A stretch of 64,000 nucleotides of DNA from Pseudooceanicola sp. (lineage in GTDB: Bacteria; Pseudomonadota; Alphaproteobacteria; Rhodobacterales; Rhodobacteraceae): the NCBI RefSeq assembly GCF_029213205.1, contig NZ_JARGNH010000020.1:1-64000 (forward strand), given 5' to 3'. Shown here piece after piece: positions 1 through 14,911 of this stretch (the stretch's first letter is position 1; every line of letters begins with the position of its first letter). The notes under the pieces were generated by a model. It saw nothing but the letters and a program-made list of their open reading frames with translations, was not told where the DNA came from and did no database searches. Made by a program: the position numbers and the translations under genes.

Positions 1-2
1 CC

Positions 3-332
3 TTGGCGAGAAAATTCTACTTATGCAGCCCCCTACTTTCGGGGGGGATTACCCGCGGCACCTATCCTGGTCCCAGGTTTTCAGGGTATTTAGGCACCGT
101 AACGCGCGCGCGGGGTGAGGTCTTAGGCAATACGGATTTACCGGTAGTCACAACGCGGGCGAACTGGCGGTGCGGCGCGCGGACCCGCAAGGGCACTCCA
201 TGCCGGGCAAGGGCGATGCCGGGCAAGACGCGGTGCAGGTTTCACGGAGGGCTATCGACCGGCCCCAAGACCCGCGAAGGCCGCGAACGCATAGCCGAGG
301 CGCAGCGGCGGCGCTGGGCGACCAAGAAATGA
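3..332 (+). CDS. HGG-STG domain small zinc-finger-like protein
   Basis: The C-terminal half carries the block CGARTRKGTPCRA, then TRCRFHGGLSTGPKT and REGRERI. This is the signature of short alphaproteobacterial HGGxSTG proteins that are often found in phage-derived and island DNA. The three cysteines and the histidine (C-x10-C, then C-x2-H) could bind a metal; that is inference. Biochemical function is unknown. The only in-frame start is a TTG at the window edge with no visible ribosome binding site, and the first 50 or so residues do not resemble the family. The true start may therefore lie further in or outside the window. A broken second copy lies near 1131-1337. Confidence 0.6.
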   Translation: MARKFYLCSPLLSGGITRGTYPGPRFSGYLGTVTRARGEVLGNTDLPVVTTRANWRCGARTRKGTPCRARAMPGKTRCRFHGGLSTGPKTREGRERIAEAQRRRWATKK

Positions 333-421
333 AGGGTTTAGGTGCAGACCGAATTGTCGATAAACCCGAATGGCGAAGGCGCGGCACTTGGAACTTCAGA
401 AATAACGACTTCAGAGGAAAC

Positions 422-895
422 CTACTTCTGGACCTGAAGAAAAAGCGGGGAGTCATCTTCAAGGCCGTAAATTGCCTTCATATCATCCCAAGACGCAATA
501 TTTGGCAATTTGCCGGGGAGGTCAGAAATCTGAATATCGATTCCAGATTTCTGAACTGCATCTGAAATTTTGGTAACTTTTGTTTCGAGAGAGGCGAGTT
601 GACCGGTCTGCTCAGCACTTTGGACCATCAGCTGAGATAGCTGACCTTGCAGGCGGTCAACAGCTTTTGTCGTGCCATCAAGCGACCTGCCGATACGGTT
701 GGAGTTAGCTTCAAGTGCAGAACTAAGCCGGTTGAGCGAACCATCTAGTCCCGAAAGGGTATTCTCGGTACTCGAAGTGTTTGCACGTACGACGTAATCA
801 GCGACGTAGAACGAAATTACCCCTGCCGAGGCGGAAGTCAAAATGAACGATATGGCCACGCGAAGCGCCCAAATTTTCCAAGACAACTCACTCAT
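422..895 (-). CDS. Membrane-anchored coiled-coil protein, function unknown
   Basis: A 157-residue protein that I do not recognise as a named family. Residues about 8-33 form one hydrophobic segment (WALRVAISFILTSASAGVIS). Residues 45-115 are rich in leucine, serine, asparagine and glutamine in a heptad-like pattern (LDGSLNRLSSALEANSNRIG), as expected of a coiled coil. The C-terminal 40 residues are acidic. It probably sits in the inner membrane with the coiled coil outside the bilayer. The ATG is preceded by AAGGAG about 11 bases upstream. It lies alone on the minus strand between two HGG-STG copies in an accessory stretch. Confidence 0.6.
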   Translation of the reverse strand: MSELSWKIWALRVAISFILTSASAGVISFYVADYVVRANTSSTENTLSGLDGSLNRLSSALEANSNRIGRSLDGTTKAVDRLQGQLSQLMVQSAEQTGQLASLETKVTKISDAVQKSGIDIQISDLPGKLPNIASWDDMKAIYGLEDDSPLFLQVQK

Positions 896-1130
896 TTATG
901 CCACACTCCTTGGACGGGTTCCTTCTTCTTGCAGTTTCCTTAATGCATTGTCAAAGAGGCGCGCGCTGTCATGCTCATGAAGAGACCCTTTGGCTAGCTA
1001 ACCGCCGTGGGCGATTTTTCCCGGGGCAGGAAATCTCCGAGACGCGTCAACGGTGCAACCGACCGGCCAAGCAAAATCCCGCAGCAACCGTTGACCTTCG
1101 TGAATATGCCCCCGACCGGATATTGCGGGC

Positions 1131-1337
1131 GCGGGGCATGTCTGGGGTCTTGACGCGTGCATGCGAAAGGAAACGCCATGCCGCGTAACGGCGATGCCCA
1201 GCAAGACCCGATGCAGGTTTCACGGCGGACTATAGACCGGCCCTAAGACCCGCGCAGGCCGAGAACGCATAGCCGAGGCGCAACGGCGGCGCTGGGCGCG
1301 ATGGCGGGCAGGACACAAGCGACCTGACAAAACCTGA
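1131..1337 (+). pseudogene. Decayed copy of the HGG-STG gene
   Basis: Read in the frame whose codons start at positions divisible by three, this stretch gives RKETPCRVTAM, KTRCRFHGGL, a stop (TAG at 1233-1235), TGPKTRAGRERI and AEAQRRRW. It aligns residue for residue with the protein encoded at 3-332. The stop falls exactly where the intact copy has the serine of STG, and there is no in-frame start upstream. The DNA from about 1160 to 1300 is closely similar to 185-325, so this is a degraded duplication. The surrounding non-coding DNA (896-1130 and 1338-1596) shows no other gene that I can support. Confidence 0.7.
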
Positions 1338-1596
1338 TACGCTGCTACGTCGCCACATCACTCGGACCAGTAGCACCCCTTGGGGGGCAGGTATCGTTCC
1401 AAATGCTTTCACCGGACTGCAACCGACTGCCCCGGCATTGGCGCGCGTGCGCGATTCAGACATTTAGAGAAAGAACGTTGGCCCTAACACACCGTTCACC
1501 CATGCACTTCACGGTTTCCAAGCGCAAATGAGATGGCGGGCATTTTGGCGGGCAAGACTCAGCATCTGCAAATTTATTCAATGATTTCAAAGGTAG

Positions 1597-1611
1597 GTGG
1601 CGGAGACGATG
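1597..1611. repeat. attL-like core, displaced 3' end of tRNA-Ser
   Basis: GTGGCGGAGACGATG is identical to 13697-13711, the CCA end plus acceptor and part of the T-arm of the tRNA-Ser gene read on the opposite strand. It lies 155 bp upstream of the integrase start. Identity stops at 1611 on the element side. Confidence 0.8.
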
Positions 1612-1741
1612 TCCGTATAACCATCGTTTTTCTGGGTTTGCCGAAGTTCGTCAGGGTACGGGATAGCCAAATAAAAACAGCTTGTTAAATCCATACCTGT
1701 CCATTGATGTTCACACGGGTTCACGTTAAACCACGAAATAG

Positions 1742-1762
1742 TGTGGGAACAAATGTGGGAAC
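1742..1762. promoter_or_regulatory. Presumed integrase arm-type sites, left end
   Basis: Two direct copies of TGTGGGAAC start at 1742 and 1754, just before the integrase start. The same pair with the same 12-bp spacing occurs at 13622-13642 near the other end. Repeats in both flanks of an integrase attachment site are typical of arm-type binding sites. Binding itself is inferred. Confidence 0.55.
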
Positions 1763-1766
1763 GATC

Positions 1767-2942
1767 ATGGCTCTCAGCGCTCAAAAGGTTAAGGTAGCCC
1801 AACCTGGACGGCATGGTGATGGGCGTGGTCTCTTCCTGTATGTAAAACCCTCCGGTGCGCGCTCCTGGGTGCTGCGCTATCAGTTGCAGGGCCGCCGCCG
1901 CGATTTAGGTCTTGGGCCTTATCCAGAAGTAAGCCTTGCCATGGCTCGTGAGCGTGCAGCAGACGCGCGGAGGCTGATTGTTGAAGGCAAAGACCCTATA
2001 GCCAAGAAGCGACAGGCCAAGCCAAAGACTTTCAAAGAGGCTGCTCTCGAATTGATCGAAAGAAAACGCCCAGGTTGGAAAAATGCCAAACACGCGGCTC
2101 AATGGACTGCGACTCTCGAAGCCTACGTTTTCCCGAAAATAGGACAGGTGCAGGTCGCCAAGATCGAAACTGCCGACGTGATCGGCGCACTAACCCCGAT
2201 TTGGTCGAAGAAGCCCGAAACCGCGAACCGTGTACGCCAACGTATCGAAGCCGTGATCGATTACGCCTCAGCTCTCGGTGTGCGCTCTGGAGACAATCCG
2301 GCTCGGTGGCGAGGGCATTTAGACCACCTTTTGCCCAAGCCGACGAAAGTTCGGGCAGTCAAGCATCACCCAGCGCTCGCTCACAGGGAAATTGCCACCT
2401 TTCTGCAAGAGCTTTCGAGGCGTAGCGGTGTTGCGGCCCGGGCGCTTCGCTTCACAGTTCTTACAGCCGCGCGCTCTGGTGAGACACGCGGTCTCAAGTG
2501 GGACGAAATAGATCTGGAGAACCGAATCTGGACAATCCCCGGCGACCGCATGAAGGCAGGGAAAGAACATCGTGTCCCGTTGAGCGCCGACGCCATCGCT
2601 TGCCTCGGTCCGCGCCGAGGCGACGACACGCTTGCGTTCGAGAGCGAAACCAAACCCGGCAAACCCATTTCAGATATGAGCATGACAGCCGTGTTGCGCC
2701 GCATGGGTCGTAACAAGATCACGGTTCACGGCTTTCGGTCCACATTTCGTGATTGGGCCGGTGAAACCACTGGCTTTCCGCGTGAGGTAATCGAAGCTGC
2801 ACTGGCGCATGGAATAAAGGACAAAGCGGAAGCCGCTTATGCACGCTCAGACCTCTTTGATAAGCGGCGCGATCTTATGGATGCCTGGTCGAGGGTGGCT
2901 TGCCAGCGTGAGGCTGGGGCAAATGCCGTCGTGCTGGCTTAA
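1767..2942 (+). CDS. int: P4-type tyrosine recombinase integrase
   Basis: A site-specific integrase that would insert and excise the element at tRNA-Ser. The N-terminus (KVAQPGRHGDGRGLFLYV) is the arm-binding DUF4102 type domain. A SAM-like core-binding domain follows (about residues 100-190), then the catalytic domain. Catalytic residues visible are Arg in TAARSGETRGLKW, the box HGFRSTFRDW (His-x-x-Arg), a second His in ALAHGIKDKAEAAY, and the nucleophile Tyr in AYARSDLFDKRR. The ATG at 1767 (391 residues) gives the usual family N-terminus; the open frame extends to 1704 through the arm-site repeats. It lies directly inside attL, as expected for the enzyme of this element. Confidence 0.9.
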   Translation: MALSAQKVKVAQPGRHGDGRGLFLYVKPSGARSWVLRYQLQGRRRDLGLGPYPEVSLAMARERAADARRLIVEGKDPIAKKRQAKPKTFKEAALELIERKRPGWKNAKHAAQWTATLEAYVFPKIGQVQVAKIETADVIGALTPIWSKKPETANRVRQRIEAVIDYASALGVRSGDNPARWRGHLDHLLPKPTKVRAVKHHPALAHREIATFLQELSRRSGVAARALRFTVLTAARSGETRGLKWDEIDLENRIWTIPGDRMKAGKEHRVPLSADAIACLGPRRGDDTLAFESETKPGKPISDMSMTAVLRRMGRNKITVHGFRSTFRDWAGETTGFPREVIEAALAHGIKDKAEAAYARSDLFDKRRDLMDAWSRVACQREAGANAVVLA

Positions 2943-3049
2943 ACAAGTGTTGTGGATGATGTGCGCTTGCATCGATATCTGATGGCGCGTTGCGGTCCGT
3001 TTCGAAACACAGTTGCCGTAACTCACTGGTCAATGCAAAGAATCTTGCC

Positions 3050-3084
3050 CAACAAAAGGAAACGCAGGCCGTAGCCTGCGTTTC
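3050..3084 (-). terminator. Rho-independent terminator ending the tracrRNA
   Basis: On the minus strand GAAACGCAGGC pairs perfectly with GCCTGCGTTTC across a 4-base loop, followed by CTTTTGTT. It probably doubles as the last tracrRNA hairpin. A plus-strand role for the integrase transcript is less likely, as no T-run follows on that side. Confidence 0.75.
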
Positions 3085-3143
3085 AATGTGGTGCAATCGA
3101 ATGCTTGTTAACGGCTCGACCGCGAATTTTGAACAGGTGTACC
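3052..3143 (-). ncRNA. tracrRNA candidate of the II-C CRISPR system
   Basis: Plus-strand bases 3112-3136 match the CRISPR repeat (reverse-complement orientation) in 24 of 25 positions, including 19 identical bases at 3118-3136. Read on the minus strand this is an anti-repeat. It is followed by a short GCA...TGC stem (about 3093-3104), a perfect 11-bp hairpin (3059-3069 with 3074-3084, loop of 4) and a T-rich tail. That order (anti-repeat, nexus-like stem, terminator hairpin) is the tracrRNA layout. It is transcribed away from cas9, in the same direction as the presumed crRNAs. The 5' end is not fixed, because I see no convincing promoter between 3144 and 3246. Confidence 0.8.
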
Positions 3144-3246
3144 TTCGCATGGAAGTTTGCTCCCTTCAATGAAAATTTGAGTTGAGATGAGAAATTTTGA
3201 ATGCAATCCTCTCTTGTATTGACATAATTTCTTGCGGAGCTGAGTC

Positions 3247-6200
3247 GTGCGTCTTGGATTGGATATTGGAACGAATTCGATTGGTTGGTGGCTCTATGCG
3301 GCAAATAATGGCGAAATCACGGAGGTCGTAGACGGTGGTGTGCGGATATTTTCCGATGGTCGCGACCCGAAGTCCAAGGCTTCGCTTGCCGTAGATCGCC
3401 GTGCCGCCCGCGCGCAACGCCGCCGTCGCGACAGGTTTCTACGCCGCAAAACCGCGTTGATGAGGCGTATGGCCGAGGTAGGGCTGATGCCCAATGACCC
3501 GGAGGAAGCCAACGCACTGGAACACCTCGATCCTTACAGGTTGAGGGCTGAAGGGTTGGATCTGGAATTGCCGTTGACCCATCTCGGGAGGGCCCTGTTT
3601 CATCTGAACCAGCGGCGCGGTTTCAAATCCAATCGCAAGACAGACCGTGGCGACAATGAAAGCGGCAAGATAAAGGATGCCACCGCACGGTTGGATCAGA
3701 TGATGATGATCAAACATGCGCGAACCTATGGCGAATTTCTGCATATGCGCCGCGCTGCTGCCCCTGACCCAAAACAGGTGCCGCCTGTTCGCACCCGTCT
3801 GTCAGTTGCGCGGCGTGATAATGCCGAAAAAGAGGAATCAGGCTATGATTTTTATCCTGACCGTCGCCATCTGGCGGAAGAGTTCGCCAAGCTATGGGCC
3901 TCTCAAGCCAGGTTTCACGCAAGTTTGACCGATGAGCTGCGCGACGAAATCCAGCTGATCATATTTCATCAACGGCCTTTGAAAGCACCGGCAGTCGGGC
4001 TGTGCCTGTTCACCGATGAAAGGCGCATCCCGTCGGCGCATCCCCTGAATCAGCGTCGCATTCTGGTAGAAAGCGTCAACGCGTTGCGGGTTGCTGAAAG
4101 AGGCGCACCCTCACGCGGGTTGTTGAAGGAAGAGCGGGACAAGATCGTCCATGCGTTGGACAACAAGAAGCATACAAAATCTCTGGCGGGGATGACACTG
4201 AAGCTCAAGGCATTGGGCAAGGTAATCGGCTTGCGGCCTGAACAGTCCTTTACGCTGGAGACTGCCAACCGCGATGCTATCGCCTGTGACCCTGTCCGCG
4301 CCAGTCTGTCGCATCCTGATCGCTTTGGGCCACGTTGGTCTGGGCTGGCTCCAGCGGCGCAATGGCAGGTAATCGAGCGCATTCGAGCGGTGCAAAGTGA
4401 GGCGGAGCATCACGCGCTGGTCGATTGGCTGATGGCGACCCATGGGCTGGACCGTGATCATGCAGACGGGGTTGCACATGCGCCTTTGCCTGACGGCTAC
4501 GGGCGACTGGGAATTACGGCAACCACCCGCATACTTGCTGCGCTGGAAGAGGAAGTGGTCCCTTATAGCGAGGCTGTTGCACGCTGTGGTTGGCGTCACT
4601 CGGATGACCGGACAGGCGAGGTGTTGGACGCACTGCCTTATTATGGAAAGATTCTGGAGCGGCATGTGATTCCGGGGACATACGATGAAAAGGACGGTGA
4701 CATTACCCGCTATGGCCGCATCACCAACCCCACGGTGCATATCGGCCTGAACCAACTGCGGCGTTTGGTGAACCGAATAATATGTGTTTACGGAAAACCC
4801 GATGAAATTGTTGTCGAGCTCGCCCGTGATCTGAAACTATCAGAGGACCAAAAGCGCGAGGTCCAAAGCACGATCAGGAAAAACACCGACGCCGCGATCA
4901 AGCGAGGCGAAAAGCTGGAGGAAATGGGCGTCCGCAATACGGGCGCAAATCGAATGATACTTCGCCTCTGGGAAGACTTGAACGAGGATGCGATGGCGCG
5001 GAATTGCCCTTATTCCGGCCAGCGGATCTGTGCCTCAATGCTATTTGACGGCTCTTGCGACGTGGATCACATCCTGCCTTATTCGCGCACCCTTGACGAT
5101 GGGTTTTCCAATCGCACGCTGTGTTTGAAGGAATATAATCGGCAAAAGACGAACAAAACCCCGTGGGAGGCGTGGGGTGATACACCCCAATGGCCCGCAA
5201 TTGAAGCCAATCTGAAAAACCTGCCTGCAAACAAGGCTTGGCGCTTTGCTCCTGACGCGATGGAACGGTTCGAGGGAGAGAACGAGTTTTCGGCCCGCGC
5301 GCTCAAGGATACCCAATATCTGTCCCGCATCGCCCGCGCCTATCTGGACGCGCTTTATGACGGACAGGATGGCAAAAACCACGTTTGGGTTGTGCCCGGG
5401 CGCCTGACGGAAATGCTGCGCCGCCATTGGGGTCTGAACGGCATCGAGGCACTCACAGATCACAATGCTGCCACCGTCAAGGCCAAGAATCGTAGCGATC
5501 ATCGTCACCATGCCATTGACGCCGCTGTTATTGCCGCGACTGACCGGTCTCTAGTCAAGCGGATCGCGGATATGGCTAAACGGGACGAGTTGGGTGGGGT
5601 CGAACAGGTGGCGCGCTCTGTTCTGCCGCCCTGGGACGGATTTCGTGCGGACATCGCCAAACAAGTGGCGCGTATTATCGTCAGCCACCGGGCGGATCAT
5701 GGGCGCATTGATCCAACCCTACGCAAATCTGGCAGGGACAGCACTAGCGGCCAGTTGCACAATGATACCGCTTATGGGCTTGCAGGTGGCGATCTTGTGG
5801 TCACCCGGAAACCACTGACCTCTATCAAGCCAAATGAAATTGACCCCACCGCGGGGGGCGCGACTATTCGGGATGCCGATTTACGCCGTCACCTCAAGCG
5901 GGTTACACGTGGATTGGATGGAAAAGCATTTGAGCAAGCCATAGTCGGTTTCGCGAATGCACCCAAATTGCCGGATCAATCGGACAATCCTTACTACCGA
6001 ATCCGTCGCGTGCGGTTGGAGGACACCCTGCAAAAGTCCGCGCGCGTGGATATTTCCGACACATCTGGAAAGCCGTTCAAAGCCTATAAAGGCGACAGCA
6101 ACCATTGCTACGAGATATGGCGTCTTCCGGATGGAAAGATAAAGCCACCGGTCGTCACTACTTTCGAGGCGCATCAGCTGGGGGTTGAGAGAAAGCCACA

Positions 6201-6489
6201 CCCTGCCGCCAAACGCCTCATGCGCTTATTCAAGCGGGACATGGTGGCGCTGGAACGGGATGGCGAGACGACTATTGGCTATATTCAGAAGCTCGACTTA
6301 GCGCACGGTCTCTTCATCGCCCCTCATACTGAGGCGAATGCCGATGCCAGGAGCCGAGATAAAACAGACTCATTCAAATTGCTCCAGATGGGTGCGGGGA
6401 CACTAGAAAAATCTCGTGTTCGCCGAGTTTTTGTCGATGAAATAGGTGGAGTAAAGGACCCGGGGCCAGGCCAATTTTCTCGAAACTAG
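3247..6489 (+). CDS. cas9: Cas9, type II-C RNA-guided DNA endonuclease
   Basis: 1080 residues, close to the compact Neisseria Cas9. RuvC-I is LGLDIGTNSIGW with Asp6. The arginine-rich bridge helix spans about 44-75 (DRRAARAQRRRRDRF). RuvC-II is EIVVELARD with Glu524. The HNH domain has DVDHILPYSRTLDD with His608 and Asn631. RuvC-III is HRHHAIDAAVIAATD with His755 and Asp758. Both nuclease sites look intact. The C-terminal part (about 780-1080) holds the PAM-interacting region by family analogy. The start is GTG at 3247 with GGAG eight bases upstream. With tracrRNA and crRNA it would cut invading DNA. The absence of csn2 or cas4 makes the locus II-C. Cas1 follows after a 65-base gap. Confidence 0.97.
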   Translation: MRLGLDIGTNSIGWWLYAANNGEITEVVDGGVRIFSDGRDPKSKASLAVDRRAARAQRRRRDRFLRRKTALMRRMAEVGLMPNDPEEANALEHLDPYRLRAEGLDLELPLTHLGRALFHLNQRRGFKSNRKTDRGDNESGKIKDATARLDQMMMIKHARTYGEFLHMRRAAAPDPKQVPPVRTRLSVARRDNAEKEESGYDFYPDRRHLAEEFAKLWASQARFHASLTDELRDEIQLIIFHQRPLKAPAVGLCLFTDERRIPSAHPLNQRRILVESVNALRVAERGAPSRGLLKEERDKIVHALDNKKHTKSLAGMTLKLKALGKVIGLRPEQSFTLETANRDAIACDPVRASLSHPDRFGPRWSGLAPAAQWQVIERIRAVQSEAEHHALVDWLMATHGLDRDHADGVAHAPLPDGYGRLGITATTRILAALEEEVVPYSEAVARCGWRHSDDRTGEVLDALPYYGKILERHVIPGTYDEKDGDITRYGRITNPTVHIGLNQLRRLVNRIICVYGKPDEIVVELARDLKLSEDQKREVQSTIRKNTDAAIKRGEKLEEMGVRNTGANRMILRLWEDLNEDAMARNCPYSGQRICASMLFDGSCDVDHILPYSRTLDDGFSNRTLCLKEYNRQKTNKTPWEAWGDTPQWPAIEANLKNLPANKAWRFAPDAMERFEGENEFSARALKDTQYLSRIARAYLDALYDGQDGKNHVWVVPGRLTEMLRRHWGLNGIEALTDHNAATVKAKNRSDHRHHAIDAAVIAATDRSLVKRIADMAKRDELGGVEQVARSVLPPWDGFRADIAKQVARIIVSHRADHGRIDPTLRKSGRDSTSGQLHNDTAYGLAGGDLVVTRKPLTSIKPNEIDPTAGGATIRDADLRRHLKRVTRGLDGKAFEQAIVGFANAPKLPDQSDNPYYRIRRVRLEDTLQKSARVDISDTSGKPFKAYKGDSNHCYEIWRLPDGKIKPPVVTTFEAHQLGVERKPHPAAKRLMRLFKRDMVALERDGETTIGYIQKLDLAHGLFIAPHTEANADARSRDKTDSFKLLQMGAGTLEKSRVRRVFVDEIGGVKDPGPGQFSRN

Positions 6490-6554
6490 GATATACTCGA
6501 ATTCTTGGCAAAAATGGAATCTTGACGTTTCGAGTTTTTATTGGAGGCAATGTA

Positions 6555-7466
6555 TTGGATCAGATTATTGATATTGCAACTGATGGCCGACACTTGTCAC
6601 TTGACCGGGGATTCTTGAAGGTTTCAGAAGGCGGCAGCGAGGTTGGCCGCACTCCGCTGGACCAAATTGCAGGTGTGATTGTTCATGCCCATGGAACGAC
6701 TTGGTCAACATCGTTGTTGACCGAATTGGCCGATAGAGGCGCGCCGGTGGTACTATGTGCCGCGAACCATGCGCCAAAATCGGTTCTGATGCCGCTGGAC
6801 GGTCATCATGCCCAAGGCGCACGTATGCGTGCTCAGTGGCAAGCAAAAGCACCGCTGGTCAAGCAGGCCTGGAAACATGTGGTGATTGCCAAGATCCAAA
6901 TGCAGGCCGCCGCACTAGCGGCGAATGGCGAATCGTCAGCGCCGCTGAGCATGTTCGCCCGCAAGGTCACCTCCGGAGATGGCAACAACATAGAAGCGCA
7001 GGCCGCGCGCTATTATTGGCCGCGCATGATGGGGCCGGACTTTCGCCGCGATACCGGAGCAGATGCGGAAAACGCGCTACTGAACTACGGCTATACCGTG
7101 CTACGCGCCGCCACAGCTCGCGCTGTTGTCGGTGCCGGGTTGCATCCTACCATTGGCATTTTCCACTCCAATCGGGGCAACGCATTTGCCCTGGCCGATG
7201 ATTTGATGGAACCGTTCCGCCCCTTGGTCGACTGCGCTGTGCGCAGCATTGTTGAACGTTCTGGGGCCAAATTGGATACCGAAGCGAAACAAGCCTTGGC
7301 ACGTCTCATCGCCATTGACCTGCCATTGGGTGAAGGAGTGACACCTGTTTCTGTTGCTCTGACAAAACTGGCGACTTCGTTGGGGCAGAGCTTTGAAACC
7401 GGCAAACTGGCTTTGGCTCTTCCTAATCCCCCCGATTCCTTGACGCTGGCGAGGCTTGGGGCGTGA
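6555..7466 (+). CDS. cas1: Cas1, CRISPR integrase subunit
   Basis: Inserts new spacers together with Cas2. I chose the TTG at 6555 because GGAGG lies 7-11 bases upstream and because the resulting N-terminus (DQIIDIATDGRHLSLDRGF) matches type II Cas1 proteins, giving 303 residues. The frame is open back to 6522. Metal-binding residues expected of Cas1 are visible: Glu in GNNIEAQAARYYW, His in GLHPTIGIFHSN and the acidic pair in ALADDLMEPFRP. The C-terminal part is all-helical as in the family. It overlaps cas2 by four bases, so the two are translationally coupled. Confidence 0.95.
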   Translation: MDQIIDIATDGRHLSLDRGFLKVSEGGSEVGRTPLDQIAGVIVHAHGTTWSTSLLTELADRGAPVVLCAANHAPKSVLMPLDGHHAQGARMRAQWQAKAPLVKQAWKHVVIAKIQMQAAALAANGESSAPLSMFARKVTSGDGNNIEAQAARYYWPRMMGPDFRRDTGADAENALLNYGYTVLRAATARAVVGAGLHPTIGIFHSNRGNAFALADDLMEPFRPLVDCAVRSIVERSGAKLDTEAKQALARLIAIDLPLGEGVTPVSVALTKLATSLGQSFETGKLALALPNPPDSLTLARLGA

Positions 7467-7807
7467 ACGCGCCTGTAACATATTTGTCGGGGTATCGTCT
7501 GATGTGGATTCTCGTGATGTTCGATTTACCCACCGATACTAAGCAGCAGCGCAAAGAAGCGGGAGCATTTCGCAACTTTCTGCTGGATGATGGCTTCGAG
7601 CGCAGCCAATTCTCAGTCTACGCGCGATTTGTCAACGGCAAGGAGGCTTTTGCCACTCGTGTCACTCGAATCGAACGACATCTGCCGTCATCTGGCGACA
7701 TACAAATCCTGAACTTCACGGACCGGCAGTACCGAGATGTCGTACATTTCTCGGATCAAGGCCGAAGAAATGCCAGGGAAAACCCTCAGCAACTGGTGAT
7801 GTTTTGA
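7463..7807 (+). CDS. cas2: Cas2, CRISPR adaptation subunit
   Basis: A small ferredoxin-fold protein forming the adaptation complex with Cas1. The core is MWILVMFDLPTDTKQQRKEA with the conserved FDLP and its Asp, followed by FERSQFSVYARF, the usual Cas2 strand. The GTG at 7463 overlaps the cas1 stop, giving 114 residues; type II Cas2 proteins often start near YLSGYR or at the internal ATG (7502), so the first 6-13 residues may be extra. The array begins 73 bp after the stop. Confidence 0.93.
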   Translation: MNAPVTYLSGYRLMWILVMFDLPTDTKQQRKEAGAFRNFLLDDGFERSQFSVYARFVNGKEAFATRVTRIERHLPSSGDIQILNFTDRQYRDVVHFSDQGRRNARENPQQLVMF

Positions 7808-7880
7808 TGCGATTCGGGTGGAAAGGCTTCAATAGGACACAGAAAATTCCCTTTTCTTACAGGGCTTTATCTGATGATCG
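7808..7880. promoter_or_regulatory. Probable CRISPR leader between cas2 and the array
   Basis: 73 bp of relatively AT-rich sequence (for example AGAAAATTCCCTTTTCTT) abuts the first repeat, which is perfect. The damaged terminal repeat is at the opposite end, which is usually leader-distal, so adaptation probably occurs on this side. Presumed crRNA transcription runs toward this leader, so it is an integration leader rather than a promoter. This is inference. Confidence 0.45.
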
Positions 7881-9495
7881 ATTGTAGCTGTTCAAAATTC
7901 GCGGTCCAGCCGCAACAACACGCGCTCTGCGGCGATTCTGTGGTATTGTAGCTGTTCAAAATTCGCGGTCCAGCCGCAACTTGGAAGACCCGGAAGGCTT
8001 CAAGCGGTGGATTGTAGCTGTTCAAAATTCGCGGTCCAGCCGCAACAGTGTTGGGGATTGGTCGGCGCGCGATGCGATTGTAGCTGTTCAAAATTCGCGG
8101 TCCAGCCGCAACATAGATTATTACGACTTGTATGTTCGCATTATTGTAGCTGTTCAAAATTCGCGGTCCAGCCGCAACGGCGTCACCATGGAAATGGTCA
8201 CTTCTGGCATTGTAGCTGTTCAAAATTCGCGGTCCAGCCGCAACGGCTGAGCGGCCGGGCCCATTCCACCAACAATTGTAGCTGTTCAAAATTCGCGGTC
8301 CAGCCGCAACAGAGTATCCGATCAACTGTGCGAATTGCTCATTGTAGCTGTTCAAAATTCGCGGTCCAGCCGCAACATCGCGTCAGCCGCAATGCCCTGC
8401 GCCTCTATTGTAGCTGTTCAAAATTCGCGGTCCAGCCGCAACGCACCCAAAGAACATAGAGCGGCACCATGTATTGTAGCTGTTCAAAATTCGCGGTCCA
8501 GCCGCAACGGAGCGCGCAACATTTGACGACGGCACCAAATTGTAGCTGTTCAAAATTCGCGGTCCAGCCGCAACTGAGCGGTTTTCTCTGAGCCACGCGC
8601 CGACATTGTAGCTGTTCAAAATTCGCGGTCCAGCCGCAACATCTCAGGACGCCCTTGGTAATCCGTTTTATTGTAGCTGTTCAAAATTCGCGGTCCAGCC
8701 GCAACCGATCACGTCCAGCACACAAGAGGCGCTGAATTGTAGCTGTTCAAAATTCGCGGTCCAGCCGCAACAGCTTGGCCTGCGCAATGACCGAAAGGTG
8801 GATTGTAGCTGTTCAAAATTCGCGGTCCAGCCGCAACTGGCGAACAATTCATCAACTGTGGCACCTCATTGTAGCTGTTCAAAATTCGCGGTCCAGCCGC
8901 AACCCAAGGCCAAGTTGATTGGTCTTTGGAGCGATTGTAGCTGTTCAAAATTCGCGGTCCAGCCGCAACTCCGGGAAACCTCGCTTGATGATAGCGAGCA
9001 TTGTAGCTGTTCAAAATTCGCGGTCCAGCCGCAACTGGCGAACAATTCATCAACTGTGGCACCTCATTGTAGCTGTTCAAAATTCGCGGTCCAGCCGCAA
9101 CTCGGGGCGCCATACTTGCATGAAACGCGGGATTGTAGCTGTTCAAAATTCGCGGTCCAGCCGCAACTGCACAACCAGCTTGGCACCCGCCACCCCATTG
9201 TAGCTGTTCAAAATTCGCGGTCCAGCCGCAACGATCTTCAAGCATTCTTCATGCGTCGCGTATTGTAGCTGTTCAAAATTCGCGGTCCAGCCGCAACCAA
9301 ACGTGCCAGCGAAGTAGTGCGGTCTGATTGTAGCTGTTCAAAATTCGCGGTCCAGCCGCAACCGCACACAGTTCCCGTTCCGGTCGGGATAAAATTGTAG
9401 CTGTTCAAAATTCGCGGTCCAGCCGCAACACAACGCCGCGTTGCAGCTGTCTGGTTGTCATTGTAGCTGTTCAAAATTCGCGGTCCAGCCGTAAA
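7881..9495 (-). CRISPR. Type II-C CRISPR array, 25 repeats and 24 spacers
   Basis: The 36-bp repeat starts ATTGTAGCTGTTC and ends CCAGCCGCAAC on the plus strand. The first copy is 7881-7916. The last, 9460-9495, ends GTAAA instead of GCAAC. Most spacers are 30 bp, with one of 28 (spacer 1), several of 29 and one of 31 (spacer 23). Spacers 15 (8838-8867) and 18 (9036-9065) are identical. Strand is given as minus because the tracrRNA anti-repeat is on the minus strand and because the minus-strand repeat starts GTTGCGGC and ends GCTACAAT. The TACAAT is -10-like, as in Neisseria II-C repeats. Short open frames across the array are artefacts of the repeat. Confidence 0.97.
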
Positions 9496-9688
9496 TGGGT
9501 GATGATTGTCGGTGACAATTAGCGATTTGATGTTGGTTGCTGAGATCCCCCAGGGGACTTGATATCTAGGGAAAACAGCATTTTTTGAGGTGATTTGAAA
9601 ATTACGTGGCAGGTCCGAATGCTAACAACTTGAACCTAACAGAGGTGATCGTCATGTTTGTGTTAAGAACATTTCAGAGGCGCAAGAT

Positions 9689-10909
9689 ATGGCATCATTC
9701 AGCGGTTTTATTCGGAAGTCTCCCTCGGCTCGCCTTCGGTGTTTCCTTGAGGTCAGGGGTGTTGATGTGCCCGAGGCCTTCGATTGGACAAGTGAAGGTC
9801 GCGGTACGGCGTTGGTACGGTCCATCGAAGAGTTGTTGGAGGAATTACCCGACCGCCAGCTGGACGTTATTAAGGCGGAGTTGGAGCTGCTGGCCAGCCT
9901 TTCCGACGACAACGGCATGACTGGCGCGGTGCAGGTTTGCGCGGGTCAAGGAATTGATCTGGAAGGGCTGGAGGGCGTGCAAGACGTGCTTTTGATGTTG
10001 GCCGCCCAGCATCCACGGATGATCGACCGGGTGAATGTCCAGGCCTCGCTGATGAGGCGGCACGGCGGCAAGCAATGGGCGCGGTTTCAGTTTCCGGATG
10101 ACGGTAAGCCGTGGGTCCTTGATCAGCAAAGCGCCCGTGAAGGGTTTCTCAAAGATACCGTCGAAATTCTCGATTTGCCCGATCATCGAAAGCGAGAGGC
10201 TGATTGGTATCAGTCCATCCGCATTCATCCTGTGACAGGTGAAGAAACCAAGCTGACCCAGGCCACGTTTTACATCGAGGAACACGCCCACAGCGAACTG
10301 GCCTTTGGCGAAGAAAGCCTTGAGCGGCAGACCGTACAAAAAGTTCTAGAGCTCGGTGTAGCCTGCGACCCGAGCGAGCGCATCGTCGAGATTTGCGCCA
10401 AGGGTGGCAAAAAGTTGCGCGACAAATACCTCCAATCCTTTTCTGAGAATTTCGCGCCGGAGTCCAAGGCACCTGTCGAAATCCCCCGCCGTGACGTGCT
10501 GCTGGACACATTGCGCCAAGCGTCGGAGTTCGTGACTGAACCGGCAGATGGGATAGAAAGGGTGGAGGTTTCGTCTCTGTCCTTCCGGTCTTCTGATGGC
10601 GGTTTTGTGCGGGTCGAAAAGCGGGCCGAAGACGAGACGCTTTATCAGTTTCTGGAGCGGCGGTTCGGCGCGGCGTCACCCTTGCGCGCTGGTGGTTGGC
10701 AGATATTGGCAGCGACCCTGCGCATCATCTTGGCGGCCACCGGGGCCAAATCATCTCGCACATTGACTGTCACGTTGAGCGCGCCGAATACCACGACTCT
10801 GCCGAACAAAACCGAGACGGACCGGCAATTTGTCTTCGATCTGTTGGAGCGCTGGCAGCTGCTTGCCCCGCCGCCGACTTGTGCCGATTTATTCGAGGTC
10901 ATTGAGTGA
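9689..10909 (+). CDS. Unrecognised 406-residue protein, first of a coupled pair
   Basis: I do not recognise the family. The protein is soluble, with no signal peptide or membrane segment. Residues about 40-75 are helical and acidic (RSIEELLEELPDRQ, VIKAELELLASL). The middle part (about 110-260) has mixed sheet and helix character with many charged residues. The C-terminus (about 330-406) is hydrophobic helix then acidic helix. I see no nuclease, ATPase or methylase motif. The start ATG at 9689 has only a weak AGAGG upstream. Its stop overlaps the next gene by four bases, so the two products are likely made together. It lies directly behind the CRISPR array inside the tRNA-Ser element. Confidence 0.75.
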   Translation: MASFSGFIRKSPSARLRCFLEVRGVDVPEAFDWTSEGRGTALVRSIEELLEELPDRQLDVIKAELELLASLSDDNGMTGAVQVCAGQGIDLEGLEGVQDVLLMLAAQHPRMIDRVNVQASLMRRHGGKQWARFQFPDDGKPWVLDQQSAREGFLKDTVEILDLPDHRKREADWYQSIRIHPVTGEETKLTQATFYIEEHAHSELAFGEESLERQTVQKVLELGVACDPSERIVEICAKGGKKLRDKYLQSFSENFAPESKAPVEIPRRDVLLDTLRQASEFVTEPADGIERVEVSSLSFRSSDGGFVRVEKRAEDETLYQFLERRFGAASPLRAGGWQILAATLRIILAATGAKSSRTLTVTLSAPNTTTLPNKTETDRQFVFDLLERWQLLAPPPTCADLFEVIE

Positions 10910-11724
10910 AACCGCTTTCGCTGCTCTGCGAAATCATCGCTCAGGGCGGCAGGGCATCCGCCGCGTTCTACCATGACAACCTCTTCTTTGAGGCGCTGCT
11001 GCGTTACGGGTACCTGCGAGAGTCTGGGGTTGTGGCGTCGGTGGTATGCAGCGAATGCGACACAGGGCATTCTGCGCCTGTGGTGGTCGAGAATGGGCGC
11101 TATGGCTACTATTGCCCGGACCTTGGCTTTTCCCCTTTGGATCGAGCATGCCTTCGAGCCGTCCTACCCGATTTGCCTCGGCTAATCGAACGATTGAGCG
11201 AGGCTCTGGATTGCAAACGCCGCAAGGCGTCAACCATTTATGGTCAGACTCGGCGCATCGGGGCGGTTGAAGCCGATGGACATGCGATCACGCTCTATTT
11301 CCATCCGCGTCTGCAAGGCGAAGACGACGCGCGTGATCTGGACCGCGCGCTGAGCCTCGAGGTCAGGTCGCCCTGGAGATTGATCGTGACGGCAATTGGA
11401 ACCTTGCGGCTTGAAGCGGCGGAGGCGGTACGTCTTGATGATTTGGCCGAGCTGGACGTTGAGACGGGAGTCTTGCGTATCCTTGCGCAACCTGCCGATC
11501 TGCTGGGCATTCCGTGCAAGAACAAGGGCGGGCGGCCAAGCGATTACGGCCCAATCTTGGCGACGATCATTTCCAGCAGGATTCAATCCGGCGAGGCGCT
11601 TGTTGGCATTAACGCCGAGGCCAAGGCGATTCGAGCGGAATTCAAAGCAGGCTACCCCGACATTCCGGTTCCTTCTCTTTCAACGGTAAAGCGGCATCTT
11701 CTAAAATCGCAGGGTGGGTCATAA
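10906..11724 (+). CDS. Unrecognised 272-residue protein with a partial zinc ribbon
   Basis: Starts with GTG inside the stop of the preceding gene (GTGA overlap). Residues 48-70 hold CSECDTGH and YYCPDLGF, a CxxC plus a further Cys and nearby His that could form a small metal site. The central region (about 85-200) is unassigned. The C-terminal part begins with KNKGGRPSDYGP, a pattern common just before DNA-binding or helical tails, and ends with PSLSTVKRHL, which resembles a recognition helix. A nucleic-acid-binding partner of the 406-residue protein is a reasonable guess but nothing more. A perfect 10-bp inverted repeat starts directly after the stop codon. Confidence 0.75.
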   Translation: MKPLSLLCEIIAQGGRASAAFYHDNLFFEALLRYGYLRESGVVASVVCSECDTGHSAPVVVENGRYGYYCPDLGFSPLDRACLRAVLPDLPRLIERLSEALDCKRRKASTIYGQTRRIGAVEADGHAITLYFHPRLQGEDDARDLDRALSLEVRSPWRLIVTAIGTLRLEAAEAVRLDDLAELDVETGVLRILAQPADLLGIPCKNKGGRPSDYGPILATIISSRIQSGEALVGINAEAKAIRAEFKAGYPDIPVPSLSTVKRHLLKSQGGS

Positions 11725-11725
11725 C

Positions 11726-11756
11726 TGGTTCAAAACCTTAGCTGTATTTTGAACCA
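11726..11756. promoter_or_regulatory. Perfect inverted repeat before the HTH gene
   Basis: TGGTTCAAAA (11726-11735) and TTTTGAACCA (11747-11756) are perfect arms around an 11-base loop, starting two bases after a stop codon and 50 bp before the small HTH gene. No T-run follows, so an operator for the nearby excisionase-like protein is at least as likely as a terminator. Confidence 0.45.
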
Positions 11757-11805
11757 TCATTCATCCGGCATCGTCCGCTCATGCTCGAACACAGGAGAAT
11801 GAGCC

Positions 11806-12021
11806 ATGACGAATACACCGGAATTGATCGCCCAAGCTGCGCAGATCCTTGCGGTTTCCCCGAACGAGGCCGCGCGCCTGTGCAGCATCGGACGCACCAC
11901 TCTCTACGCTGCGTTGTCGTCGGGGGAGTTGACCAGCATCAAGATTGGCACGCGCCGCCTGATCATGTTGGAGGCGCTGCACGACTGGCTGAAGCGCAAC
12001 GAAACCCCGGCGGGCGAGTGA
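11806..12021 (+). CDS. Excisionase-family small HTH DNA-binding protein
   Basis: 71 residues. Residues about 17-55 (SPNEAARLCSIGRTTLY, then KIGTRRLI and LHDWLKR) match the MerR/excisionase winged-helix domain of AlpA and Xis-like proteins. The leader AGGAGAATGAGCC gives a ribosome binding site at good distance. Such proteins act as recombination directionality factors or as transcriptional regulators of mobile elements. Here it could control excision by either recombinase of the element, or the inverted repeat just upstream. Seven bases separate it from the next gene, so the two are co-transcribed. Confidence 0.8.
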   Translation: MTNTPELIAQAAQILAVSPNEAARLCSIGRTTLYAALSSGELTSIKIGTRRLIMLEALHDWLKRNETPAGE

Positions 12022-12028
12022 GGCGCAG

Positions 12029-12442
12029 ATGCCGAAGCAAGCGCGCCTGAACGGGATCAAGGGGTTCCGTTGCTACACGATAGATGAGGCGGCGGAGGTA
12101 TCCGGCGTCTCTCCTCGAACTATCCGCAATTGGGCGGCTGACGGGCTTCACGTCATGGACGCGACCCGGCCATCTTTGATCCGGGGTGACGATCTGCGCA
12201 AACACATCAAATCCAAACGTGACAGCCGGTCGGTGAAGACCCGGATCGATACATTCTATTGCGTGCGTTGCCGGGATGAGCGGCAAGCGGCGGAGAGGCT
12301 AGCAGATTGCGACATCAAGAGCGGGCGCGCCAAGCTGACTGCCCTCTGCGAGGTATGCGGAACTGTCGTTTCAAAGCCGGTGGCCGTGGCGCGAATCCCT
12401 GAAATCGTCCGGACCCTGGACCTCAAAATTACGCGGCTATAG
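12029..12442 (+). CDS. HTH and zinc-ribbon protein of the mobile element
   Basis: 137 residues. An N-terminal MerR-like helix-turn-helix (about 16-50: YTIDEAAEVSGVSPRTIRNW) is followed by a Cys4 zinc ribbon with CVRC at 78-81 and CEVC at 107-110. The middle segment RPSLIRGDDLRKHI is the usual wing of the HTH domain. It is probably a sequence-specific DNA-binding protein in the same transcript as the 71-residue HTH protein and possibly the recombinase at 12548. The specific role (regulation or directionality) is not known. Confidence 0.75.
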   Translation: MPKQARLNGIKGFRCYTIDEAAEVSGVSPRTIRNWAADGLHVMDATRPSLIRGDDLRKHIKSKRDSRSVKTRIDTFYCVRCRDERQAAERLADCDIKSGRAKLTALCEVCGTVVSKPVAVARIPEIVRTLDLKITRL

Positions 12443-12547
12443 CGAACATTAAGGTGGTGGACAGTGGCCCCCTTGTTTTTCCGCTTCCGGCCAGGCCCGG
12501 TCGGAAGCCGATCTATCCCTGCAATGATCGCCTGAAAGGAGGCCGGA

Positions 12548-13588
12548 ATGACCAAGCGACCGAATGAGAAAAATGAGCGCCTCAAGCGGCGATTTCTGGA
12601 GTATCGCAAATACGCGCGGCAACTCTCCGACAAGTCCCTCGACCGTGAACTCGCTTCGCTGGAGCGCTTCGATGTTTGGAACGGGCGCAAGGATTTCGGC
12701 AAGTTCCACATCGAATGGGCCATGGGGTTCCGAACTCACCTGGAACAGGCCAAGAGCGCGAGCGGCAAGCCTTTGGGCAAGTCTACCACCCGCGCCATTC
12801 TGGCAACCCTGCGCGAGTTCACATTGTGGCTTTCTCAGCAAGACGGTTTTCGCAGTCGGATCAGGGCAGCAGACGCGGACTATTTCAACTTGTCCCGCCG
12901 CGACGAGGCGGAGGCACGCGCCGCCCCAACCCGACCGGCCCCCAGCGTGAAGCAGGCGAAGCGGGCGCTGGCGATGATGCCCGCGACCACGCCACGCGAG
13001 ATGCGCGACAAGGCGGTCTTTGCGCTGTTGTGTCTGACGGGCATCCGTGTGGGCGCTTTGATCTCCTTGCGGATTAAGCACGTCAATTTGGATGAGAAAT
13101 CCGTGACGCAGAATCCGCGCGAGGTGGCAACCAAATTTGGTAAGAGCATCGACACCTTCTTTGCCCAAGGCTTCCCAGAGGCCGAAGCCGCTTTGGTGGC
13201 TTGGATGGCGCATCTCGACGACGAAGCGCTCTATGGCCCGGACGATCCGCTGTTTCCAGCGACAGCCATCGCGCCGCAATCCAACACCGGCTTCTCAGCC
13301 GAGGGCTTCGAGCGCCGCCCTTGGAAAAGTACCGAGCCCGTGCGCAAGATCGTTAACACCGCCTTTGCCGCCGCAAATCTGGATGCCTTTGGCCCGCACG
13401 CCTTTCGCCATATGTTGGCGCGTCATGCGGCCAAGAACTGCACCTCGGTCGCCGAACTGGTCGCCACCTCACAGAACCTCGGCCATACCGACGTGCTGAC
13501 GACGCTGCGCAGCTACGGCCAGATTAGTCGCGAGCGCCAACGGGCGCTGATCACCGGCGAGTCAGATAGTGATGTTTTGGAGGATTAA
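12548..13588 (+). CDS. Tyrosine recombinase, second in the element
   Basis: 346 residues of the phage integrase superfamily. The core-binding domain spans about 10-110. The catalytic domain has Arg in LLCLTGIRVGALISL, the His-x-x-Arg box in GPHAFRHMLARH, a second His in NLGHTDVLTTL and the nucleophile Tyr in LRSYGQIS. AAAGGAGG lies directly upstream of the ATG, so expression may be strong. It is unlike the P4-type integrase at 1767, lacking the N-terminal arm domain. It ends about 110 bp before the tRNA-Ser gene. It may move the 9689-13588 cassette, or assist excision of the whole element. Confidence 0.88.
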   Translation: MTKRPNEKNERLKRRFLEYRKYARQLSDKSLDRELASLERFDVWNGRKDFGKFHIEWAMGFRTHLEQAKSASGKPLGKSTTRAILATLREFTLWLSQQDGFRSRIRAADADYFNLSRRDEAEARAAPTRPAPSVKQAKRALAMMPATTPREMRDKAVFALLCLTGIRVGALISLRIKHVNLDEKSVTQNPREVATKFGKSIDTFFAQGFPEAEAALVAWMAHLDDEALYGPDDPLFPATAIAPQSNTGFSAEGFERRPWKSTEPVRKIVNTAFAAANLDAFGPHAFRHMLARHAAKNCTSVAELVATSQNLGHTDVLTTLRSYGQISRERQRALITGESDSDVLED

Positions 13589-13621
13589 GGCGAAGCGCCA
13601 AGCAATCAAAGGCGCGCCAAG

Positions 13622-13642
13622 TGTGGGAATGGATGTGGGAAC
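13622..13642. promoter_or_regulatory. Presumed integrase arm-type sites, right end
   Basis: TGTGGGAAT at 13622 and TGTGGGAAC at 13634 repeat the sequence and 12-bp spacing seen at 1742-1762, in the same orientation, 55 bp from the attR core. In a circular form these sites would flank the joined core. Confidence 0.55.
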
Positions 13643-13696
13643 GCCTCCGGCGCCGTCCGAGTTTTTCCTTTTAATTCAAGGCTTTGATTGGGGTAA

Positions 13697-13711
13697 GTGG
13701 CGGAGACGATG
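13697..13711. repeat. attR-like core within the tRNA-Ser 3' end
   Basis: The second copy of the 15-bp core, identical to 1597-1611. It covers the CCA, the discriminator base, the acceptor strand and the first bases of the T-arm of the tRNA-Ser gene on the minus strand, so integration restored an intact tRNA. Confidence 0.8.
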
Positions 13712-13787
13712 GGATTCGAACCCACGAGACCCTTCCGGGCCTACTCCCTTAGCAGGGGAGCGCCTTCGACCACTCGGCCACGTCTCC
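13698..13787 (-). tRNA. tRNA-Ser (anticodon GCT)
   Basis: The minus strand begins GGAGACGTGGCCGAG and ends CGTCTCCGCCA. The 7-bp acceptor stem is GGAGACG with CGTCTCC, and CCA is encoded. The anticodon arm is CTCCC, loop CTGCTAA, GGGAG, with GCT read from 13751-13753. A long variable arm follows, as in all tRNA-Ser, then the T-arm with GTTCGAATC. It reads serine codons AGC and AGU. It is the integration site of the adjacent CRISPR element. Confidence 0.97.
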
Positions 13788-13891: not shown

Positions 13892-14911
13892 TAGGTGTTT
13901 GATCCCACGGTTTAATGGTGCGAGCCTTTCGAGGGACTGGAAGGAAGCACTATGGGACAGATACGTCACGGAAGCGCCACGACCATGTACGCCGTCAGAT
14001 CTGCAATATAGCGATCGCAAGCTTCGGCCGCGGCGTTGAGCCGGGAACTGGGGATCAACCCGAAGACGGTCGCCAAGTGGCGCAAGCGGGAAACGCTGGA
14101 AGACCGCAAAACCGGGCCGAAGGAGCCGAGAACCACCGTGCTGAGCGAGGCCGAGGAGGCGATGATTGTCGGGTTCCGGCAGCACACCCTCCTGCCGCTG
14201 GACGATTGCCTCTACGCGCTGCAGCCGTCCATCCGGCACCTTACGCGGTCGGCGTTGCACAGGTGCCTGTAGCGGCATGGCATCTCTCGCTTGCCGAACG
14301 TGGACGGCGACAAGCCGAAGCGCCAGACGTTCAAACGCTATCCGATTGGGTTCTTCCACATCGACATCGCTGAGGGGCAGACTGCGGAGGGCAAGCTCTA
14401 TCTCTTCGTCGGGATCGACCGCACCAGCAAGTTCGCGGTCGCCCAACTCGTCGAAAAGGCTGACAGGCGCACGGCGTGGGAGTTCCTGCAGCACCTGCTC
14501 GAAGCCGTGCCCTACCAGGTCCACACCATTCTCACGGATAATGGCATTCAGTTCGCCGAGCAGCCGCGAAACCGAAACAGCATCTATTCCCGACCGATGC
14601 GCTTCGACATGATCTGTGAAGCAAACGGGATTGAGCATCGGCTGACAAAACCCAACCACCCCTGGACCAACGGCCAGGTCGAGCGGATGAACCGCACGAT
14701 CAAAGACGCGACCGTCAGGCGATATCACTACGACAGCCACGACCAGCTGCGCACCCACCTCGCCGACTTCCTGGCTGCCTACAACTTCGCGCGCAGGCTC
14801 AAGACCCTTAGCGGGCTGACGCCGTACGAATACATCTGCAAAATCTGGACTTCAGAGCCAGAACGAACCATCCTCAACCCGATCCACCAGATGCCGGGAC
14901 TGAACACCTAA
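13892..14911 (+). mobile_element. IS481-family insertion sequence, inactive
   Basis: The right end, read inward, starts TTAGGTGTTCAGTCCCGG; the left end starts TAGGTGTTTGATCCCACGG. The outermost 8-9 bases are inverted, with clear decay inside the left end. The single transposase gene is broken by two stops. I see no certain target duplication. It separates the tRNA-Ser gene from a small membrane-protein gene whose stop codon lies in the IS end. Confidence 0.75.
13952..14911 (+). pseudogene. IS481-family transposase, two in-frame stops
   Basis: One frame reads MGQIRHGSATT, stop (TAG 14009-14011), then SRELGINPKTVAKWRKRETL, a helix-turn-helix, a second stop (TAG 14270-14272), and the integrase core with FFHIDIAE, LFVGIDRTSKF, TILTDNGIQF, EANGIEHRLTKPNHPW and NGQVERMNRTIKDA. 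The DDE residues (Asp in HIDIAE, Asp in TDNG and Glu in QVERMN) are still present. The C-terminus (GGL or SGLTPYEYI, PIHQMPGLNT) matches the family to its end. The second stop replaces a glutamine expected in HRCLQRHG. No functional transposase is expected without readthrough. Confidence 0.88.

Follow-up and report, generated by a model that had tools for sequence, protein, structure and literature searches.

The DNA studied here (the window) is a stretch of 64,000 nucleotides from Pseudooceanicola sp., contig NZ_JARGNH010000020.1. Positions 1597 to 13711 of this window hold a type II-C CRISPR (clustered regularly interspaced short palindromic repeats)-Cas system inside an element that is bounded by two identical cores. 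The left half of the element consists of a core, a pair of arm-type repeats, a P4-type tyrosine integrase, a candidate trans-activating CRISPR RNA (tracrRNA), cas9, cas1, cas2 and the CRISPR array. After the array follow o406, o272, xis71, hth137, xer346, a second arm pair and the second core (Table 1). All genes of the element lie on the plus strand, except the candidate tracrRNA and perhaps the CRISPR RNAs (crRNAs). An initial annotation, made from these letters alone, had described the CRISPR locus as cargo of a tRNA-Ser integrative element with a P4-type integrase. The cargo part of this description holds, but it was incomplete, since the tRNA-side half (the genes at 9689-12442 and xer346) had been missed. 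The P4-type integrase is indeed found just inside the left core, with three Pfam domains, but a second tyrosine recombinase, not of the P4 type, adjoins the tRNA gene.

Ends and gene content of the element

The 64-kb window contains only two exact copies of the core GTGGCGGAGACGATG, the second of which overlaps the 3' end of tRNA-Ser(GCT), a gene recognised by both ARAGORN and Rfam; the initial annotation was correct on both points. When up to two mismatches were allowed, the same two matches were still the only ones in the window. Shuffled sequences contained on average 0.33 loose matches and reached two in 6 of 100 shuffles, so we place the weight on exact identity and on the co-variation of the cores across other elements. 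The paired TGTGGGAA repeats inside both ends, also noted before, appeared in none of 100 shuffles. In relatives, the same kind of core is followed by TCCGTAT or a similar stretch. At the left end the arm repeats extend over the sequence immediately ahead of the integrase start, and at the right end they lie about 34 bp past the xer346 stop codon. The element has a G+C content of 55.9%, against 64.0% for the rest of the window to the right of the tRNA. It shows two features of a tRNA-integrated genomic island: direct repeats, one of them the 3' end of a tRNA gene, and tyrosine integrase genes inside the ends (two recombinases by Pfam).

Judging from the relative L033, the ATG at 1768, just past the arm repeats, appears to be a better integrase start than the TTG at 1704. 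Residues R167, H284, R287, H313 and Y323 of xer346, which we take from the family to be catalytic, were invariant in nine sequences. Full-length homologues of o406 formed an alignment of 21 rows, and the alignment for o272 had 26 rows; o272 had no family match in the Pfam, NCBIfam, PHROG or PADLOC scans. The start region of xer346 (window 12450-13157) has a 708-bp copy elsewhere in the same genome (G000:C42:128366-128956; L079 13370-14029), with 91% DNA identity and 98% over 196 amino acids, in frame with a transporter-permease-like open reading frame (ORF).

The cas genes and the 24-spacer array were confirmed by TIGRFAM, PADLOC and the repeat count, and the tracrRNA stands as a candidate predicted from its anti-repeat and hairpin. 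The assignment to type II-C is based on cas9, cas1 and cas2 without csn2 or cas4, the lack of any extra gene from 3247 to the array, the 36-bp repeats and this candidate, whose stretch folds into a strong hairpin (-33.9 kcal/mol, z -4.07). The spacers are 28-31 bp long, the last repeat has two mismatches, and the crRNA strand is probably the minus strand. One spacer is duplicated, at 8833-8867 and 9031-9065, three units apart.

Table 1. Features of the element and its target gene (positions in the window)
Feature	Position	Strand	Basis or remark
Distal attachment core, same as tRNA-Ser(GCT) 3' end	1597..1611	+	exact 15-bp repeat
Left arm-type repeat pair TGTGGGAAC, 12 bp apart	1742..1763	+	kept before integrase in relatives
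P4-type tyrosine integrase	1768..2942 (ORF open from TTG 1704)	+	Arm-DNA-bind_3 PF13356, Phage_int_M PF22022, Phage_integrase PF00589
tracrRNA candidate (anti-repeat 3112-3136, then hairpin)	3050..3145	-	predicted
cas9, 1080 amino acids	3247..6489	+	TIGR01865, 540.7 bits
cas1 (type II)	6522..7466	+	TIGR03639, 236 bits
cas2	7463..7807	+	TIGR01573; PADLOC Cas2_II
CRISPR array, 25 repeats of 36 bp, 24 spacers	7881..9495		
o406, conserved carrier gene	9689..10909	+	only PHROG 37634 (unknown function)
o272, conserved carrier gene; Cys-rich stretch, then C-terminal helices	10906..11724	+	structure model, mean predicted local distance difference test (pLDDT) 88.7
xis71, excisionase-like helix-turn-helix (HTH) protein	11806..12021	+	TIGR01764, 43.7 bits; PF12728
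hth137, HTH/MerR-like protein	12029..12442	+	PF12728, DUF5679
xer346, second tyrosine recombinase, without arm-binding domain	12548..13588	+	PF00589; best NCBIfam XerC, below cutoff
Right arm-type repeat pair	13622..13643	+	same repeat as left pair
Proximal attachment core, inside tRNA gene 3' end	13697..13711	+	exact 15-bp repeat
tRNA-Ser(GCT), intact target gene	13698..13787	-	ARAGORN; Rfam tRNA at 13701-13787

Sister elements and their cargo

One genome per species (84,980 genomes) was searched with an alignment of nine xer346 sequences, and 45 loci with this recombinase were found, mostly in Rhodobacteraceae. At 33 of them a tRNA-Ser (GCT, TGA, CGA or GGA) or tRNA-Arg(ACG) gene lies just past xer346, within about 150 bp. 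Matches to o406, o272, xis71, hth137 and xer346 occur together at 26 of the 45 loci (some cut at contig ends). Thirteen elements could be delimited by a whole module and identical 14-18 bp cores at both ends: that of the window, L033, L074, L185, L191, L198, L213, L230, L231, L232, L233, L235 and L236. They have nine different core sequences, carry at least one exact arm repeat inside each end and are 10.3-18.9 kb long (median 11.7). Not counted among them are L209 (matching 14-bp cores, 8.7 kb, without o406), L175 (11-bp core, without o406) and the incomplete L181 and L206. L033 (genome G022) and L074 (G234) have the same integrase, module and arm repeats as the window, and their cores, TGGCGGAGACGAAG and AGTGGCGGACTGGGGA, agree at the two ends of each element and differ from the window core. 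L074 is the same element as L189 (Litorivita pollutaquae); no tRNA gene was recognised at its right core.

The sister elements share both end types, the integrase and the tRNA-side module, and hold other cargo at the same place; the 13 differ in one slot, between the integrase and o406. A recognisable defence system fills this slot in 10 of the 13. Type II-C CRISPR occurs in the window and L074, in opposite orientations relative to the carrier. The others are restriction-modification (R-M) systems: type III in L033, L185 and L213, type I in L191, L230 (=L178), L233 (=L200) and L235 (=L211), and an IIG-like fused enzyme in L232 (=L184); the fetched loci L178, L200 and L211 end within one R-M gene. 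Beyond the 13, type I R-M is present in L205 (=L234) and L176 (=L237) and type III in L181, and L206 carries a tetratricopeptide repeat (TPR) protein. Ten flank ORFs used as a control contained no R-M gene and one partial mads_3 match. The sister elements support the claim that the CRISPR locus is carried as cargo by an element integrated at tRNA-Ser and limited by these two ends, and the proposed look-up of the same integrase with different cargo did find other systems in the same slot. At the sequence level, the anatomy, the matching cores, the shared carrier genes and the exchange of cargo are evident, and the CRISPR locus is one of the cargoes of this carrier, most of them defence systems. 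In the Pseudovibrio element (L200 2698-3726), a ThsA-like gene (PADLOC STALD) lies between the type I R-M genes.

The two recombinases also tend to occur together. Among 295 genomes of the bacterial family, integrase orthologues (at least 76% identity; next best 53%) are present in 5 and xer346 at 70% or more in 11 (12 with a half-length match), including all 5 integrase genomes (hypergeometric 2.6e-8, using 11 genomes). Both genes stand on one contig in eight loci whose left ends were fetched separately, and on different contigs in G257 and G310. On an xer346 tree of 38 sequences, the 32 rows whose target is named require at least 17 target changes, indicating that the family often switches tRNA gene. 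Two genomes hold two copies at two tRNAs (L179 and L180 in Bpl_10; L194 and L216 in 2-1044). Since an hth137 homologue adjoins 17 of 18 recombinases of about 40% identity, hth-xer is an older pair. Homologues of xer346 with 78-81% identity in Kordiimonas, Pseudovibrio and Ponticaulis, of orders other than Rhodobacterales, indicate that the element family is shared between orders, although metagenome assemblies are among these records.

These findings indicate that 1597-13711 is very probably an integrated copy of a compact dual-tyrosine-recombinase family that uses the 3' ends of tRNA-Ser and tRNA-Arg genes and usually carries one defence system in a fixed slot. It is rather likely, with less assurance, that this undescribed family is a dedicated shuttle of single defence systems, its slot being refilled with R-M or CRISPR in a shared vehicle.

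Alternative explanations and proposed mechanism

Several observations count against this reading. Both recombinases and type I R-M are present in L234 and L237, but the right ends of these two do not lie at a tRNA and their cores could not be matched. The integrase-side core of G257, of the tRNA-Ser(GCT) type, mismatches the xer346-side tRNA-Ser(GGA). An integrase orthologue (E <= 1e-120) was found in 12 of 27 xer346-bearing genomes and not in the other 15; xer346 often occurs without the integrase, perhaps as a remnant. The L232 integrase contains a stop codon. No whole defence system was recognised in three of the 13 elements among the ORFs scanned (3 of 8 in L231, 4 of 10 in L236, 2 of 5 in L198). 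The slot of L231 holds a fragment of a type I methyltransferase, that of L236 RTX, sulfotransferase and phosphotransferase-like genes, and that of L198 an IS66 remnant and an acyltransferase.

The occurrence of xer346, with or without o406, beside tRNAs lacking the P4-type integrase (an integrase missing from 15 of the 27 genomes) would suit a chance stack, in which a P4-type integrase and CRISPR island and an o406-xer346 module island were inserted successively at the same tRNA, and tRNA 3' flanks are hot spots. Such a stack is nevertheless very improbable, as 13 elements of different genera and targets combine both parts within one core pair, with order and orientation unchanged, and the window has no third core between the two parts. 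The persistence of xer346 next to tRNAs without the integrase is also consistent with a single mover, either the P4-type integrase or xer346, the other being a passenger or regulator. P4-type integrases alone suffice for many islands. We regard this as a real possibility, but one with less than even chances: the recombinases are co-inherited in the delimited elements, the presumed catalytic residues of xer346 are invariant, and GInts need all their several integrases (PMC5385486).

A phage satellite or defective prophage might be suspected from the P4-like integrase, the narrow size range around the median, the one IMG/VR contig that carries the carrier module and the PHROG match of o406. This origin is unlikely, because Pfam and PHROG revealed no capsid, packaging or helper-hijacking genes in the element proteins (of which o406 and o272 have no assigned function) and a search of 50,697 phage records for xer346 gave nothing at E <= 1e-20. 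A plasmid search gave one close xer346 match (87%), split by a frame change. It is similarly doubtful that the segment is a fixed chromosomal CRISPR locus with relic recombinases whose mobility has been lost. An IS3-type remnant adjoins the tRNA and a multicopy element end lies at the contig start, as such a locus might show, but both recombinase genes are open and both cores and arm pairs are intact. Moreover, the tRNA-Ser(GCT) locus was obtained from 20 of 21 same-genus genomes, and none of the 20 has an element match within 1.5 kb past the tRNA; as their 3' flanks are variable, no exact empty site was read from them. In the 21 genus-mates, window 1-1596 is matched only by a 50-base multicopy end, in two genomes.

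For the dual-recombinase element, recombination between the two cores would free a circle. There, xer346 and the integrase would become neighbours across the attachment site, which would have arm repeats on either side, and together with o406, o272, xis and hth they would form one co-directional block; the defence cassette would fill the remainder. The P4-type integrase may bind the arm repeats, xer346 may take part in strand exchange, and xis71 and hth137 may set the direction. Integration at a tRNA 3' end would split the block at the attachment site, and integrase expression would switch as the element passes from the circular to the chromosomal state. ICEKp1 reportedly has a state-dependent integrase promoter. 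The element would probably spread with help from another element or phage, because no transfer genes were recognised: nine element proteins (ORFs under 60 amino acids and other small ORFs lying outside the scan) gave no relaxase or type IV secretion match in Pfam.

Known elements and probable separate histories of cargo and carrier

CRISPR on islands is already known; what is unusual here is the dual-recombinase anatomy and the slot for one defence system in most members. A full-text literature search, which did not cover most subscription journals and preprints, returned no account of this element family. P4-like satellites and tycheposons are small elements at tRNA or other RNA genes with an integrase and variable cargo, often defence, as in the window element. 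They differ in their satellite packaging genes, none of which was recognised here; homology was compared for the integrase family only.

I55-type islands of Pseudomonas are transduced by jumbo phages and resemble the present family as small non-conjugative islands by an RNA gene, with direct repeats, a tyrosine integrase and mostly phage defence (PMC12595487). They have a tmRNA site, one integrase (intY), core genes of the alpA, RadC and YqaJ types, and a larger, very mixed cargo of under 20 to over 70 kb (PMC12595487), whereas the window family has two recombinases, the o406-o272 module, tRNA-Ser/Arg sites and one slot. The nearest model for transfer is that of the I55 islands and their jumbo phages. 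CampyICE1 is likewise an integrated element by a tRNA, with an integrase, a XerC-type recombinase and a type II-C Cas9, but is conjugative and 70-129 kb long, and its CRISPR system is degenerate, with cas9 only (PMC8743540); the window element is about 12 kb, has no recognised conjugation genes and carries complete cas9-cas1-cas2 and an array. GInts (ginABCD) share several tyrosine recombinases, a small regulator-like protein, varied cargo and a circular form, but have three integrases in one operon at one end (PMC5385486). The window element lacks such an operon with its small protein and has two recombinases, one at each end. Vibrionaceae islands place CRISPR-Cas, including type II-B, at tRNA loci, and one lies beside an R-M system and three integrases; they differ in size (25-30 kb), in CRISPR subtypes and in integrases (PMC6360697).

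Cas9 (E <= 1e-100) was found in 19 of the 295 genomes. Neither arm repeats nor a module closely like that of the window were present at the 18 other Cas9 loci fetched (L145-L162), although hth and xer have distant homologues (30% and 41%) at L150, and a 44% P4-type integrase occurs at L149. The window Cas9 groups with five Cas9s of such loci (support 99/97), apart from that of L074, and a sister relation of the two was rejected on the Cas9 tree (approximately unbiased test, p-AU 0.011). Together with the opposite orientations of the two cassettes, the tree shows that CRISPR entered the carrier at least twice or was exchanged. Related CRISPR loci elsewhere without the integrase, which the initial annotation had listed as contrary evidence, do exist in other genera; at G125, G126 and G216, for example, Cas9 is 78-79% identical and no carrier gene matches in the 14-20 kb fetched. 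We read these loci as a sign of separate histories of cargo and carrier and not as absence of a carrier.

A compact vehicle with defined ends, a fixed slot and known targets opens defence exchange between distant bacteria to census and bench test. Adaptive systems (CRISPR with spacer memory) and innate ones (R-M) occupy the same slot of the same carrier. The sister elements live mostly in marine bacteria and usually have another anti-virus system in that slot, and, if the shuttle reading is true, one vehicle would spread both CRISPR and restriction systems among them. As o406 and o272 travel with the carrier, they are candidates for new recombination or transfer factors.

Cas9 genes also stand beside distant hth-xer pairs, at L068 (G305:C18, 33%) and L150 (G028:C61, 71%), so type II CRISPR may be a more frequent cargo in the wider recombinase group. 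At L141 6011-6808 (G008:C1), in the same genus, a related cas9 is reduced to its first 260 residues, and a single 9-mer resembling an arm repeat lies about 3 kb from this remnant.

In the surroundings of the element, the IS3-type transposase remnant (13915-14911) adjoins the 5' side of the tRNA, where several same-genus genomes have genes that we presume to be ychF-like. The contig starts with a repeat of about 54 bases (1-54), with nine further matches on other contigs of this genome, including two at contig starts. Two copies of a 145-bp stretch (176-320 and 1154-1298, 85% identical) lie within one ORF, which we take to be of the HGG-motif kind.

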